From Actinomycetota bacterium (lineage in GTDB: Bacteria > Actinomycetota > Acidimicrobiia > Acidimicrobiales > JAJPHD01), in assembly GCA_021325455.1 (NCBI GenBank), contig JAJPHD010000009.1, positions 62,001-126,000 of the forward strand: a stretch of 64,000 bases of DNA, given 5' to 3'. The position numbers and the translations under genes are program-made. Positions 26,150-32,087 of the stretch are shown piece by piece. Numbering within the stretch: the stretch's first letter is position 1; every line of letters starts with the position of its first letter. A model generated the notes under the pieces. It ran no database searches and had not been told where the DNA came from. It worked only from the letters and a program-made list of their open reading frames with translations.

Positions 26150-29029
26150 TCAGGAGCGGCCGTGGCAGAGCTTGTACTTGCGCCCGCTGCCGCACCAGCA
26201 GGGCTGGTTGCGCCCCATCCTCTCCGGCTCCGGGCGGCCGGCCGGGCCGAGGCCGCCCCTGGCGGGCGGACCTGGCGGATAGGCCACCCCCGCCTCGGGC
26301 GGTCCCGGCTCCTGCCAGGTCGGCCGGCGATCGGCACCTCGTGGCCCCGCCGGGCCGGGAGGGGATGGCGGGGCACCGGCCTCAGAGGCGGGGAGCGGAC
26401 CTCCGAGCACCCCATGCCCCTCCTCTCCCAGCGTGGCCAGCTCTGCGGCCGCCAGCTGGGACGCCGTCAGCTGGTCGGTGAGAACCGAGAGGTCCTGCAC
26501 GGGCTCCCCTGCGCCCAGGTATTGGGCCTGGGCCAGGTCGGGCTCGGGACCGGTCTCCTCCAGGACCTCGACATGGAGCACGTAGCGGAGATAGTCCTCG
26601 TCTATGGAGGCCATCATCTGGCCGAACATCTGGTAGCCCTCCCGCTGCCAGCTCACCAGAGGGTCCTGCTGGCCCATGGCCCTCAGGTTGATGCCCTCTC
26701 TCAGGTAGTCCATCTCGGCCAGGTGCTCGCGCCAGCGCTGGTCGATTATCTGCAGCATGATCTCGCGTTCCAGCTCCCGGGCGGTCTCGGCTCCCCCGGG
26801 CATCTCGGCCTCCCGCCTCTCGTAGTACTCCAGCGCCTCGGCCAGGATGCTCTCGGCGATCTGCTCCGTGCTCACTGCCTCGGCCAGGTCCTCAGCGGTG
26901 AACTCGGTCGGGTAGTACTGGTGCACCTCGGCCACCAGCCGCTCGAGGTCCCAGTCCTCGGGGAACTCCCCGGGGCAGGTGTCGGCCACGATGGTCTCGA
27001 TGGCCGACTCCAGGAGCTCCACCGTCCGTGCCCGCAGGTCCTCACCGTCGATGATCTGCATGCGCCGGGCGTAGATCACCTTGCGCTGCTCGTTCATCAC
27101 CTCGTCGTACTTGAGGACGTCCTTGCGGATCTCGGCGTTGCGCGCCTCGACCGTGTTCTGTGCCCGCTCTATGGCCTTGGTGACCATCCGGGCCTCGATG
27201 GGCACGTCTTCGGGCAGGGCCTTGCCCATCACCCAATTCATGGCACCGGTGGCGAAGAGGCGCATGAGCTCGTCCTCGAGGGAGAGGAAGAACCGGCTCT
27301 CCCCGGGGTCCCCCTGCCGTCCGGACCGGCCCCGCAGCTGGTTGTCGATCCGACGGCTCTCGTGGCGCTCGCTGCCGAGCACGTACAAGCCGCCCAGCTC
27401 CTTGACGCGCTCTCCCTCCATCCGGCACTGTTCGGCGAACTTGCTCACCAGCTCGGCGAGCCGGGCCCTGCCCTCCTCGCTCGACGGGTCGGTTCCTTCG
27501 GCCAGCGCCTCCTGGAGCGCCAGGCCCTCCGGGTTGCCCCCGAGGATGATGTCCACTCCCCTACCGGCCATGTTGGTGGCCACGGTCACGGCACCCAGGC
27601 GCCCGGCCTGGGCAACGATCTGGGCCTCCCGGGCGTGCTGCTTGGCATTGAGGACGTGATGGGGTATCCCCCGCTGGGTGAGAAGGCGCGAGAGCTGCTC
27701 CGACTTGGCCACCGATGCGGTGCCGACCAGGACCGGCTGCCCCCGCTCGTGACGCTCGGCGATGTCCTCCACCACGGCAGCGAACTTGCCCGCCTCGGTC
27801 TTGAAGATGACGTCCGAGTGGTCGACGCGGATCATGGGGAGGTTGGTGGGGATCGGGACCACCGGGAGGTTGTAGGTGTTGGCGAACTCGGAGGCCTCCG
27901 TCTCGGCCGTCCCCGTCATGCCTGCCAGCTTCTCGTAGAGGCGGAAGTAGTTCTGCAGGGTGACGGTGGCCCAGGTGTGGTTCTCCTCCTTGATGGTCAC
28001 CCGCTCCTTGGCCTCCACGGCCTGGTGCAGGCCGTCCGACCAGCGGCGGCCTTCCAGGATGCGCCCCGTGAACTCGTCTACGATCTTCACCTCCCCCTGG
28101 GCCACGATGTAGTCCTTGTCCCTCTTGTAGAGCTCCTTGGCCCGCAGAGCCTGGGTGAGCTGGTGGACGTAGTTCACCGCCACCGCCTCGTACAGGTTGT
28201 CCAGGCCCAGCTGGCGCTCCACCTTGGCGATCCCCTCCTCGGTGGGGACCACGGTGCGCTTCTCCTCGTCCACCTCGTAGTCCACGTCCCTGCGCAGGGT
28301 GCGGGCCACGCTGGCGAACTGGTAGTAGAGGCGAGCCGACTCCGTCGCCGGCCCTGAGATGATGAGCGGGGTCCTGGCCTCGTCTATGAGTATGGAGTCG
28401 ACCTCGTCGACGATCGCATAGACGTGCTCCCGCTGGACCATGGCGTCCCTGGTCCGGCACATATTGTCTCGGAGGTAGTCGAAGCCGAACTCCGTGTTGG
28501 TCCCGTAGGTGACGTCGCACTCGTAGGCCGCCCTCCGCTCGGCCGAGTCCTCCATCGTGGGCAGGACGAGACCCACGTCGAGTCCAAGGAAGCGGTATAT
28601 CTGGCCCATCCACTCGGCGTCCCGGGCGGCGAGGTAGTCGTTCACCGTCACCACGTGGACGCCTCGGCCCGTCAAGGCGTTGAGGTACACAGGCAGGGTG
28701 GAGACGAGGGTCTTGCCCTCGCCCGTCTTCATCTCGGCGATCCAGCCGAAATGAAGGGCCATGCCCCCCATGAGCTGGACGGGGAAGTGCCGCTGGCCGA
28801 TCGTCCTCCTGGCTGCCTCCCTGACCACGGCGAAGGCCTCGACCAGCAGGTCGTCGAGATCCTCGCCCTGGTCCAGCCGCTCCCGGAACTCCACCGTCTT
28901 GTGGGCCAGGGAGATGTCGTCCAGGGCCTCGACCTCGGGCTCCCTCCCCTCGATGATGGGCACGATCTCGGCCAGCCGCCGGACCTTCTTGCCCTCGCCG
29001 GCCCGGAGCAGCTTGGTGAACATGCTCAT
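26150..29029 (-). CDS. secA: preprotein translocase subunit SecA
   Basis: Motor ATPase that drives unfolded preproteins through SecYEG. 959 residues. The nucleotide-binding motifs include Walker A MKTGEGKTL and Walker B VDEVDSILIDEARTPL. The preprotein cross-linking domain, helical scaffold and wing follow in the usual order. The C-terminal zinc motif CWCGSGRKYKLCHGR is intact, which allows SecB or ribosome contacts in other bacteria. A Pro/Gly-rich linker of about 70 residues precedes it. The gene is downstream of the response regulator (about 160 nt) and upstream of prfB. Confidence 0.97.
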   Translation of the reverse strand: MSMFTKLLRAGEGKKVRRLAEIVPIIEGREPEVEALDDISLAHKTVEFRERLDQGEDLDDLLVEAFAVVREAARRTIGQRHFPVQLMGGMALHFGWIAEMKTGEGKTLVSTLPVYLNALTGRGVHVVTVNDYLAARDAEWMGQIYRFLGLDVGLVLPTMEDSAERRAAYECDVTYGTNTEFGFDYLRDNMCRTRDAMVQREHVYAIVDEVDSILIDEARTPLIISGPATESARLYYQFASVARTLRRDVDYEVDEEKRTVVPTEEGIAKVERQLGLDNLYEAVAVNYVHQLTQALRAKELYKRDKDYIVAQGEVKIVDEFTGRILEGRRWSDGLHQAVEAKERVTIKEENHTWATVTLQNYFRLYEKLAGMTGTAETEASEFANTYNLPVVPIPTNLPMIRVDHSDVIFKTEAGKFAAVVEDIAERHERGQPVLVGTASVAKSEQLSRLLTQRGIPHHVLNAKQHAREAQIVAQAGRLGAVTVATNMAGRGVDIILGGNPEGLALQEALAEGTDPSSEEGRARLAELVSKFAEQCRMEGERVKELGGLYVLGSERHESRRIDNQLRGRSGRQGDPGESRFFLSLEDELMRLFATGAMNWVMGKALPEDVPIEARMVTKAIERAQNTVEARNAEIRKDVLKYDEVMNEQRKVIYARRMQIIDGEDLRARTVELLESAIETIVADTCPGEFPEDWDLERLVAEVHQYYPTEFTAEDLAEAVSTEQIAESILAEALEYYERREAEMPGGAETARELEREIMLQIIDQRWREHLAEMDYLREGINLRAMGQQDPLVSWQREGYQMFGQMMASIDEDYLRYVLHVEVLEETGPEPDLAQAQYLGAGEPVQDLSVLTDQLTASQLAAAELATLGEEGHGVLGGPLPASEAGAPPSPPGPAGPRGADRRPTWQEPGPPEAGVAYPPGPPARGGLGPAGRPEPERMGRNQPCWCGSGRKYKLCHGRS

Positions 29030-29187: not shown

Positions 29188-29907
29188 TCAGAGCCCGTCG
29201 GTCTCTATCAACCTCTCCCGCACGGCGTACATGACAGCCTGCATCCGGGAGTGCAGATGGAGCTTCTCCAGGATGTTGCGGACGTGGTTCTTGACCGTGT
29301 TGTCGGAGATGAACAGGCGCTGCCCGATCTCCCGGTTCGAGAGCCCCTTGGCGGCCAACCCCAGGACCTCGAGCTCGCGTCCGGTGAGGACGGGGGCGGG
29401 GAAACGAGCCTCGGCCCTCTCGGCCAGGGCCGAGAACTCGCTCAGGAGCTTGGCGGCCATGGAAGGCGTGATGAGGCTCTGGCCCTGGGCCACGGCCCGG
29501 ATGGCATCGGCCACCTGCTCGACAGAGATCTCCTTGAGCAGGTACCCGCTGGCGCCCGCCTTGACCGCCTCGAAGAGGTCCTCGTCCTCGTCGCTCACGG
29601 TGACCATGAGGATCTTGGTCGTCGGTGCCAGGGCGTGCACCGCTCGGGCCGCTTCGATACCGGTCACCTTCGGCATGCGTACGTCCATCAAGATGACGTC
29701 GGGAGCCAGCTCCTCGGCCTTGGCGACCGCCTCCTCCCCGTCCTCGGCCTCGGCCACGATCTCGATGCCCGGCTCGTCGGCCAGCACCGCCCTCAACCCC
29801 CGGCGGAAGAGGGCTTGGTCGTCGGCGATGATGACCCGCAGGGTCTGGTCGCCCGGGCCGAGCCCGGTCTCCACGCCGGTCTCGATGTCGGTGTCGGTCA
29901 CGGTCAC
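29188..29907 (-). CDS. NarL/FixJ-type response regulator
   Basis: 239 residues. The receiver domain (about 23-140) has acidic pocket residues DD at 29-30, phosphoacceptor Asp75 in LMDVRMP, and the conserved Lys in GYLLKEIS. The LuxR-type helix-turn-helix at about 170-235 includes LTGRELEVLGLAAKGLSNREIG and NTVKNHVRNILEKL (in pieces). A Thr/Asp-rich N-terminal tail of about 22 residues precedes the receiver. No histidine kinase is encoded in the window, so its input signal is unknown. The start lies 8 nt after the hpf stop, so it is almost certainly cotranscribed with hpf. Confidence 0.93.
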   Translation of the reverse strand: MTVTDTDIETGVETGLGPGDQTLRVIIADDQALFRRGLRAVLADEPGIEIVAEAEDGEEAVAKAEELAPDVILMDVRMPKVTGIEAARAVHALAPTTKILMVTVSDEDEDLFEAVKAGASGYLLKEISVEQVADAIRAVAQGQSLITPSMAAKLLSEFSALAERAEARFPAPVLTGRELEVLGLAAKGLSNREIGQRLFISDNTVKNHVRNILEKLHLHSRMQAVMYAVRERLIETDGL

Positions 29908-29915
29908 CCCTTCGC

Positions 29916-30560
29916 TCAGATGGAGTCGATGAGGCCGATGTCCCCGTCGTTGCGCCTGTAGACCACCGCCGGCCGGTCCGTCTCTGCGTTCGTGAAGAAG
30001 AAGAAGTCGTGGGCCAGGAGGTCCATCTCGAGCACGGCCTCCTCCGGTGTCATGGGCTTGATGGCGAACTGCTTGACCTTCACGATCCGGCCGGCCCCGT
30101 CCACCGCCCCAGCCCCTCCTGCCTCATCGAGCTCCTCCTCTCCGGTGCCCGGGCTGACGCCGCCGCGCCGGGCAGAAGCGGGGCGGGAACCCGGGCGACG
30201 AACGGGGGCGGCCCCGCCAGCGGCCGCCACCTTGGGGCTGGCGTGGTGGCGGGGGTGGGACCGGCCCACCAACCTTCCCTTCAGCTTCTCCATCCGGTGC
30301 TCCAGCTTGTCCAGCACCCGATCCACGGCCACGAGGGTGTCCGCCGCCGACGCCCGGGCCCGCAGAACCGTACCACGTCCCACGACCCTGACCTCGCAGA
30401 CCTCCTTGTCCGCTATGCGGGGGTTGCGCTCCTCGGTGAAGTTCACCTCGGCCCGCTCCACCCCGTCCAAGTACCTGCTCAGGTGCCCCACCTTCTCCTT
30501 CACCACGGACCGAACGTCCTCGGGCACCTCGACGTTGCGGCTACGGATGGAGATGTCCAA
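29916..30560 (-). CDS. hpf: long-form ribosome hibernation promoting factor
   Basis: Binds the 30S subunit and pairs 70S ribosomes into inactive 100S dimers in stationary phase. 214 residues from TTG 30558-30560, with AGGGAG about 7 nt upstream. The N-terminal ribosome-binding domain (1-100, LDISIRSRNVEVPEDVR) is followed by a Pro/Arg/Gly-rich linker. The C-terminal dimerisation domain reads IVKVKQFAIKPMTPEEAVLE and DFFFFTNAET. This makes it the long form, able to dimerise without RMF. A roughly 300-nt region with strong RNA-folding potential precedes the gene. The response regulator gene follows at 8 nt. Confidence 0.94.
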   Translation of the reverse strand: MDISIRSRNVEVPEDVRSVVKEKVGHLSRYLDGVERAEVNFTEERNPRIADKEVCEVRVVGRGTVLRARASAADTLVAVDRVLDKLEHRMEKLKGRLVGRSHPRHHASPKVAAAGGAAPVRRPGSRPASARRGGVSPGTGEEELDEAGGAGAVDGAGRIVKVKQFAIKPMTPEEAVLEMDLLAHDFFFFTNAETDRPAVVYRRNDGDIGLIDSI

Positions 30561-30684
30561 CGCTGGCTCCCTTGCTCGTGTGGGCCGAAGCCCAAAGGTG
30601 GGGTCCGGAGGTCCGCGCCGCCTCCAGGTGGCGGTGGCCCCCCTCGGCGGGCAGTGCCCCGGGGGTCCCGGCGGGATGGAAAGG

Positions 30685-30980
30685 CGATGGGCAACGTGCG
30701 GCTGACCTGGTCTTTGCCCCCACACTCGCCTGCGGAGGAGGTGGCCGGCCGGGAGCCGGCGGCCGTGGGCCCGGGGCCCACCGCCCTGCAGCCCCCAGGG
30801 TGGCCGGCGTCGCTCCTTCACCGCCGGAGGCCGCCCATCGGCCTCTCAGCAGGCAGGTCTTACTCCTAAGCCGCACCATGCTCAGCAACCACGGGTCGCC
30901 TTACGTGGGTCGTTTCGCCTGCGGCTGGCGTCGACTTGCAACCACAGACCCGCACGCAGCCCATCCCCCGCGAGTGTAGG
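30685..30980 (-). ncRNA. candidate raiA-motif structured RNA upstream of hpf
   Basis: This stretch has no convincing gene but high folding potential when read on the minus strand. CCTACACTCGC (30980-30970) pairs with GCGAGTGTGGG (30729-30719) over 11 bp, closing a domain of about 260 nt. Inside it are hairpins CCACG/CGTGG (near 30907-30890), CTTA-GGAG-TAAG (30870-30859) and CCGGCG/CGCCGG (30827-30804). CGATGGGC (30840-30833), inside the domain, is complementary to GCCCATCG (30692-30685), outside it, which makes a pseudoknot. GTGGTTGC occurs twice (around 30945 and 30891). A conserved RNA called the raiA motif is known upstream of hpf/raiA genes in Firmicutes and Actinobacteria. Position, size and a pseudoknot agree with it. 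I could not compare the consensus, so the family name is inference. Confidence 0.6.
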
Positions 30981-31025
30981 CCTGCGGCGCAGGCGGTGCG
31001 GGAGGGAGGTGGGGAGCCCCGGACC

Positions 31026-32087
31026 TCAGCCCTGGCGGAGCTGGCTCTTCAACCGGGTGAGCACGGGGGCAGGGCCGGGGTCTATGCCTGACTGAGCTGC
31101 CAGGTGGAGCGAGACGAAGTCGCCGATCATGACCAGGTCGAGCAGCTGAGCCAGCTCCCCCTCACCGGCGGCCCGCACCTCGCACACGTCGGCCACCGCT
31201 CCGGCCAGGATCTCGCCCACCAGGGCAAAGCGCCGGGCAACCTGGGGGTGCTCTCCGTCGTGGCGGAGGTTCACGACCGTGATGAGCTTCCTGGTCACGT
31301 CGGCCAGCCTGGCCCAGCCCTCGACCTCGTTGTGGCACAGCTCGGGGTAGACGGCCCAGAAGGCCGGGGACTTGGCGTTCTCGTTGACCTGGGTCTTCCA
31401 CCGCAGGGCAGCGGTCATCCCCAGGGCGCGCGAGCTGTGGACGAGGGGGATGGTGTTCCCTATCCTGGCCGCCACTTCGGCCGCCACGCTGTCCCCCCCG
31501 AGAAGCTGCTCCCGGCGGCGCCGGAGCTGGGCCACAGCCAGCTCCACCCAGCGGGAAGCGCCCGGGAACAGCCCGATGGACTCCAGCACCACCAGGATGG
31601 GGATCGCCATGGCGCCGATGGCGGCCCGGGGCTCGGGCAGGTCGCGGGGCACCCCGACCAACGGGAGCTCGGCTCTCTGGGCCAGCTCGGCCAGCTGGCC
31701 GCCCCCGGTCACCACGACCATCTTGGCCTGCTGGCCGAGGCTCTCCCCGGCGGCCTCGACCGTCTCCTCGGTGTCGCCCGACCACGACACGGCGAAGACC
31801 AGGCTGGCTGGGCCCACGAAAGCCGGGGGGGTGTAGGACTTGACGACCGTCACCGGTACTGGCAGGTAGGGGCCCGCCACCGCCAGCACCACGTCGCCGG
31901 CCACGCCGCTACCCCCCATGCCCAGGACCACCACGTTCTCGATCTGCTCCCGGGCGGGCAGCCCCGCCACGTCCGCCGCCCGCTCGGCTGCCGACGCCAC
32001 CTGATCGGGGAGGCCGGCGTGGGCCTCCAGCATGCCTTCGCTGTCCAGCGCCCCCAGTCCCGGCACGCGCCCGGCGAGGTCGCTCAC
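31026..32087 (-). CDS. bifunctional phosphoglucose/phosphomannose isomerase
   Basis: Interconverts fructose 6-phosphate with glucose 6-phosphate and mannose 6-phosphate. 353 residues from GTG 32085-32087, overlapping the previous stop as GTGA. Two SIS domains are seen. The first contains VVLGMGGSGVAGD, the phosphosugar-binding Ser/Thr loop VSWSGDTEET, and the second has RWKTQVNENAKSPAF and CHNEVEGW (the Glu and His expected in catalysis). This short form is known from archaea and actinobacteria. It lies downstream of a Trm112-like gene and phosphomannomutase, a layout that directs glycolytic sugars into mannose or glucose nucleotides. Confidence 0.88.
   Translation of the reverse strand: MSDLAGRVPGLGALDSEGMLEAHAGLPDQVASAAERAADVAGLPAREQIENVVVLGMGGSGVAGDVVLAVAGPYLPVPVTVVKSYTPPAFVGPASLVFAVSWSGDTEETVEAAGESLGQQAKMVVVTGGGQLAELAQRAELPLVGVPRDLPEPRAAIGAMAIPILVVLESIGLFPGASRWVELAVAQLRRRREQLLGGDSVAAEVAARIGNTIPLVHSSRALGMTAALRWKTQVNENAKSPAFWAVYPELCHNEVEGWARLADVTRKLITVVNLRHDGEHPQVARRFALVGEILAGAVADVCEVRAAGEGELAQLLDLVMIGDFVSLHLAAQSGIDPGPAPVLTRLKSQLRQG

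Follow-up and report, generated by a model that had tools for sequence, protein, structure and literature searches.

The 465-nt gap ahead of hpf (positions 30561–31025, minus strand, of the window, the 64,000-nt stretch of DNA analyzed here) contains a raiA-motif RNA, also called ModT, and 24 genomes of the same order retain such an RNA while having no detectable hpf. The window RNA (30693–30958, minus strand) matched the Rfam raiA model RF03072 over its full length (model positions 1–209 of 209, at 30958–30693) with 127.2 bits and an E value of 6.4e-31, compared with a gathering score of 101.3 bits, and it was the sole above-threshold Rfam covariance-model match in the 64-kb window. It is a further member of the known raiA/ModT family, which confirms the identity that the original prediction had proposed for the gap; the refuting outcome named there, lack of a covariance-model match, did not occur. 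The usual position of raiA RNA next to hpf has prompted the suggestion that it is connected with ribosome hibernation. The 24 RNA-bearing genomes without HPF point to an HPF-independent function and make the hibernation link directly testable. Taking the evidence together, we consider it likely that an RNA of ∼281 nt is made from its own promoter, with read-through into hpf, and acts in trans rather than by switching hpf.

The gap lies between a gene for a phosphoglucose/phosphomannose isomerase-type (PGI-type) SIS protein (31026–32084; PF10432, 135.7 bits) and hpf (29916–30560; PF02482, 62 bits, and PF16321, 90 bits), both on the minus strand. hpf encodes a long-form ribosome hibernation factor, and its TTG start at 30560 is 132 nt past the end of the RNA model and is preceded by a Shine–Dalgarno sequence (AAGGGAG, 30573–30567). 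A LuxR-type response regulator gene (29188–29907; PF00072 and PF00196) and secA (26150–29029; synteny assessed by tblastn with the window protein) follow on the same strand. Named relatives of the window HPF protein come from Actinomycetota assemblies, several of them labeled Acidimicrobiales, which suggests an Acidimicrobiales-like order for the window. The common neighbors of raiA RNAs are comFC upstream (74%) and raiA/hpf downstream (66%), as quoted in PMC11706538 from Soares (2024). The window RNA is likewise placed between an upstream gene and hpf, with a PGI-type gene instead of comFC, which is not obligatory for members of the family; 14 relatives likewise have a PGI-type gene at ≤1.5 kb on the upstream side of the RNA. 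The earlier view that the gap holds no supportable gene and precedes hpf was borne out: the gap is non-coding, hpf is real by both of its domains, and a conserved protein across the region was rejected, with each RNA-strand frame open through the RNA in at most 9 of 59 genomes. Antisense frames are open through it in up to 29 of the 59, as expected for GC-rich DNA, and the lengths of the order's RNAs are evenly spread over the three residues modulo 3.

Within the order, raiA RNA was found in 59 of 198 genomes, that of the window included, as a single copy in each and always above threshold; a search of the window genome with RF03072 revealed no second copy. In a sample of the phylum, 110 of 296 genomes carry it. 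The window RNA ranks among the lower-scoring of the 59 copies, and the fold of 30966–30685 is above chance (z −3.6).

Structure was analyzed with the 59 RNAs of the order plus their flanks. Stem P1 of the Rfam model (5′ arm UGCGUGCGG, 30950–30958; 3′ arm CCGCACGUU, 30693–30701, minus strand) had 96% paired cells and 131 double changes vs. a shuffle mean of 27, as predicted for a helix maintained by compensatory change. On either side of the model, the adjoining eight positions had 72% paired cells vs. 52% in shuffles, and 109 double changes vs. 45, with 0 of 1000 shuffles as good. These shuffles break the relatedness of the sequences; registers of the extension slid by 1–3 positions, which preserve relatedness, all dropped to background. 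Because the flank covariation is strong and the slid registers are at background, GATGGGC (30959–30965) pairs with GCCCATC (30686–30692) as the foot of P1. This GATGGGC had been noted as a second copy that might serve as an alternative pseudoknot partner of GCCCATC; the pairing is real and covaries, but it belongs to the P1 extension.

The P3 loop (AGCCGCA, 30920–30926, minus strand) and the pk-L strand (UGCGGCU, 30869–30875, minus strand) form pk-1, which links the P3 loop to the P5–P6 junction. All seven pairs form in the window and in 54 of 54 genomes in which both halves were located by pattern, and the closing pair shows an A-U to G-C change. The cryo-EM structure of the Clostridium acetobutylicum raiA RNA likewise shows a pk-1 of 7 bp joining the P3 loop with pk-L (PMC11751092); the P1/P3 layout and pk-1 are common to the window RNA and the clostridial one (RF03072; 9CXF, 9ELY). 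Relative to RF03072, the window P1 is longer by 7 bp and has a U-U mismatch where the extension joins, and the RNA measures 266 nt vs. the 209 positions of the model, with the extra sequence in the variable region. A lineage-variable hairpin (GAGGCC-GAUGGGC-GGCCUC, 30827–30845, minus strand) is an insertion with respect to the model.

The loop of this hairpin is the 5′ arm of an 8-bp pseudoknot that the original prediction had drawn to GCCCATC near the 3′ end. This loop-to-3′-end pairing is not conserved among the 59 genomes: all eight pairs form in one of them, the window's own, and the mean number of pairs was 6.31 of 8 with a genome's own arms and 6.26 with swapped arms. The 465 nt contain 7 complementary 8-mer pairs vs. 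7.5 in shuffles, not above chance, and 11 repeated 8-mers vs. 7.8, which we also counted as not above chance. A proposed repeat, GTGGTTGC, was rejected as meaningful: the copy at 30945 belongs to the conserved core and that at 30892 to a local hairpin, and both are present within the RNA in 16 of the 59 genomes only.

A putative −10 hexamer, TACACT (30973–30978, minus strand), precedes the RNA. TANNNT is present at the corresponding site in all 59 genomes, beginning 14–20 nt and ending 8–14 nt ahead of the model start, vs. 1–2 of 59 in control windows of equal width further upstream. Its identification as a −10 box comes from genome comparison only; a sigma-70 consensus scan found no −35 consensus or full promoter. 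The promoter next to the RNA would start transcription at the foot of P1, near 30966 (predicted to ±2 nt, minus strand), 7 nt past the box and one base ahead of P1. The ∼281-nt RNA is then expected to fold into the known compact core of P1 with its lineage extension, P3 and pk-1. An 11-bp helix proposed earlier, CCTACACTCGC/GCGAGTGTGGG, contains the TACACT hexamer in its 5′ arm. Should the box act as the −10 element, this arm would precede the start site and probably lie outside the RNA. When the 465 nt were shuffled with dinucleotides preserved, 85 of 100 sequences contained complementary stretches of ≥11 nt, and the pairs of the helix beyond the hexamer are poorly kept (12 of 41 and 14 of 41 at its inner end), and the helix was rejected. 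Every sequence quoted in the original prediction does occur where it had been placed, and the non-coding interval, the covariance-model match and the above-chance fold stand. Most of the helices named earlier do not belong to the RNA. The pairing at the P1 foot covaries, whereas the 11-bp helix and the 8-bp pseudoknot, two of the structural arguments for a raiA RNA, reduce to promoter sequence or chance.

hpf follows the RNA on the same strand in 33 of the 59 genomes, 24–181 nt (median 46) past the end of the model, and in 22 of these 33 the spacing is ≤60 nt. A Shine–Dalgarno-like sequence precedes hpf in 31 of the 33, and a terminator-like site separates it from the RNA in one. RNA and hpf therefore probably share a transcript in these 33 genomes. 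In the window, a scan found no terminator between the RNA and hpf, so RNA polymerase very probably continues into hpf; the RNA would then form the 5′ portion of a transcript that includes hpf, from which it is presumably processed out, unless its fold protects it. A loose terminator scan flagged 12 of the 26 unlinked loci vs. 1 of the 33 linked ones, but the scanned stretches are unequal in length and the unlinked figure is not interpretable. The closest hpf relative, at 62% identity, has hpf and no raiA RNA in the 5.9 kb surveyed, even at E ≤ 1 (locus L032), indicating that hpf also occurs without an adjoining RNA in close relatives.

Among the 26 unlinked genomes, 24 gave no match at E ≤ 1 to any of PF02482, PF16321 and an HPF profile of the lineage, which was built from the order's own HPFs and detects short forms missed by PF16321. 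The exceptions are G116, with hpf elsewhere in the genome, and G102, in which the RNA borders the end of one contig and hpf the start of a second, so that the two may be adjacent. HPFs that lack the C-terminal PF16321 domain are short forms of ∼95–125 aa (G031, G047, G072 and G004), and long forms are present elsewhere in the order. Completeness is ≥90% and contamination ≤5% in 23 of the 26 unlinked genomes, and 22 of these 23 lack PF02482. The RNA scored equally well with and without hpf (medians 146.6 and 145.5 bits, p 0.49), and P1 likewise did not differ. Across the 198 genomes, 35 have both RNA and HPF, 24 the RNA alone, 86 HPF alone and 53 neither (Fisher p 0.75, only a guide since the rows are related genomes). 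RNA and HPF are distributed independently within the order, and with the 24 genomes that have the RNA and hpf nowhere, this weakens the link to ribosome hibernation that had been drawn from the position of the RNA. Outside the order, HPF was present in 80 of 80 RNA-bearing actinobacterial genomes tested, and the decoupling is therefore so far limited to the order. There, hpf is often distant from the RNA or on the other strand; in one family of the phylum sample (f85) RNA and hpf are far apart or on separate contigs throughout.

The 24 hpf-less genomes with equally well-scoring RNA argue against cis control of hpf or an obligatory HPF partner. Ligand-responsive control of hpf by a cis-acting riboswitch or leader agrees with the same-strand hpf a short distance downstream in 33 of 59 genomes and with the Rfam type label of RF03072 (Cis-reg; riboswitch). 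We consider it improbable, given that leaders of 24–60 nt in 22 genomes leave little room beyond the Shine–Dalgarno sequence for an expression platform, no terminator was found in the window, the RNA is kept where hpf is missing, in genomes beyond the order hpf is often distant or oppositely oriented, and clostridial ModT mutants are complemented in trans (PMC11706538). A review judged the location of raiA RNA inconsistent with a riboswitch (PMC11477304), and the RNA's own promoter box, the scant room for an expression platform and its survival without hpf agree with that judgement. Some cis effect could exist in the 33 genomes with closely linked hpf, and the window copy itself may exert translational control of hpf.

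To a similar degree we doubt that the RNA partners HPF or hibernating ribosomes, with both RNA and protein partner arising from a single transcript. The shared transcript inferred in 33 genomes and probing that hints at protein binding by ModT in Clostridioides difficile (PMC11706538) would fit such a role, but the RNA scores equally well in the 24 genomes without HPF, and the two are unassociated across the 198 genomes. That the gap is GC-rich intergenic DNA with chance hairpins and no functional RNA, as the chance level of the long helix and the 8-bp pseudoknot might suggest, has next to no probability, being already refuted by the full-length RF03072 match and the P1 covariation, with the promoter box present in 59 of 59 genomes.

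The window product is most likely a trans-acting structured RNA that in this case happens to head the hpf transcript. As ModT does in clostridia, it would act on the transition from growth to stationary phase, and not as an on/off switch of hpf. ModT of C. difficile belongs to the same RNA family, and its RNA is started by a single intergenic promoter (PMC11706538). There, termination sites and a PTS operon follow; the window RNA has no terminator in view and is followed by hpf. The persistence of the RNA in HPF-less genomes is not stated in the literature surveyed, which leaves out the main synteny paper (Soares 2024), and priority is not claimed; retention of raiA RNA without hpf is useful new evidence.

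Most hpf-less loci retain the usual neighbors, namely the response regulator or secA downstream, or the PGI gene upstream. The response regulator directly follows the RNA in several hpf-less relatives and secA does so in others. In L065 and L078, both hpf-less, the response regulator beyond the RNA is encoded on the opposite strand, convergent with it. In L010, L013, L015 and L083 secA starts ∼40 nt past the RNA, which there resembles a secA leader instead of an hpf leader. On a RecA tree of 58 RNA-bearing genomes, in which several RecA genes have inserts and many branches are weak, hpf presence switches ∼10 times, and at least four switches are forced by well-supported branches. The switch count alone is blind to gain vs. 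loss; the preserved gene order, however, favors loss of hpf. These data lead us to favor, with some reserve, the view that (i) hpf was lost repeatedly from lineages that kept the RNA with its promoter box and, in most cases, its neighbors; and (ii) the role of raiA RNA in the order is conserved and HPF-independent. If so, the hpf-less lineages are natural knock-outs in which the RNA is uncoupled from HPF-based ribosome hibernation. The RecA genes of L120/L122, L121, L145/L152 and others in the order are split, either between model positions 198 and 193 or past position 245, by stretches that stay within one long open frame, in an intein-like arrangement.
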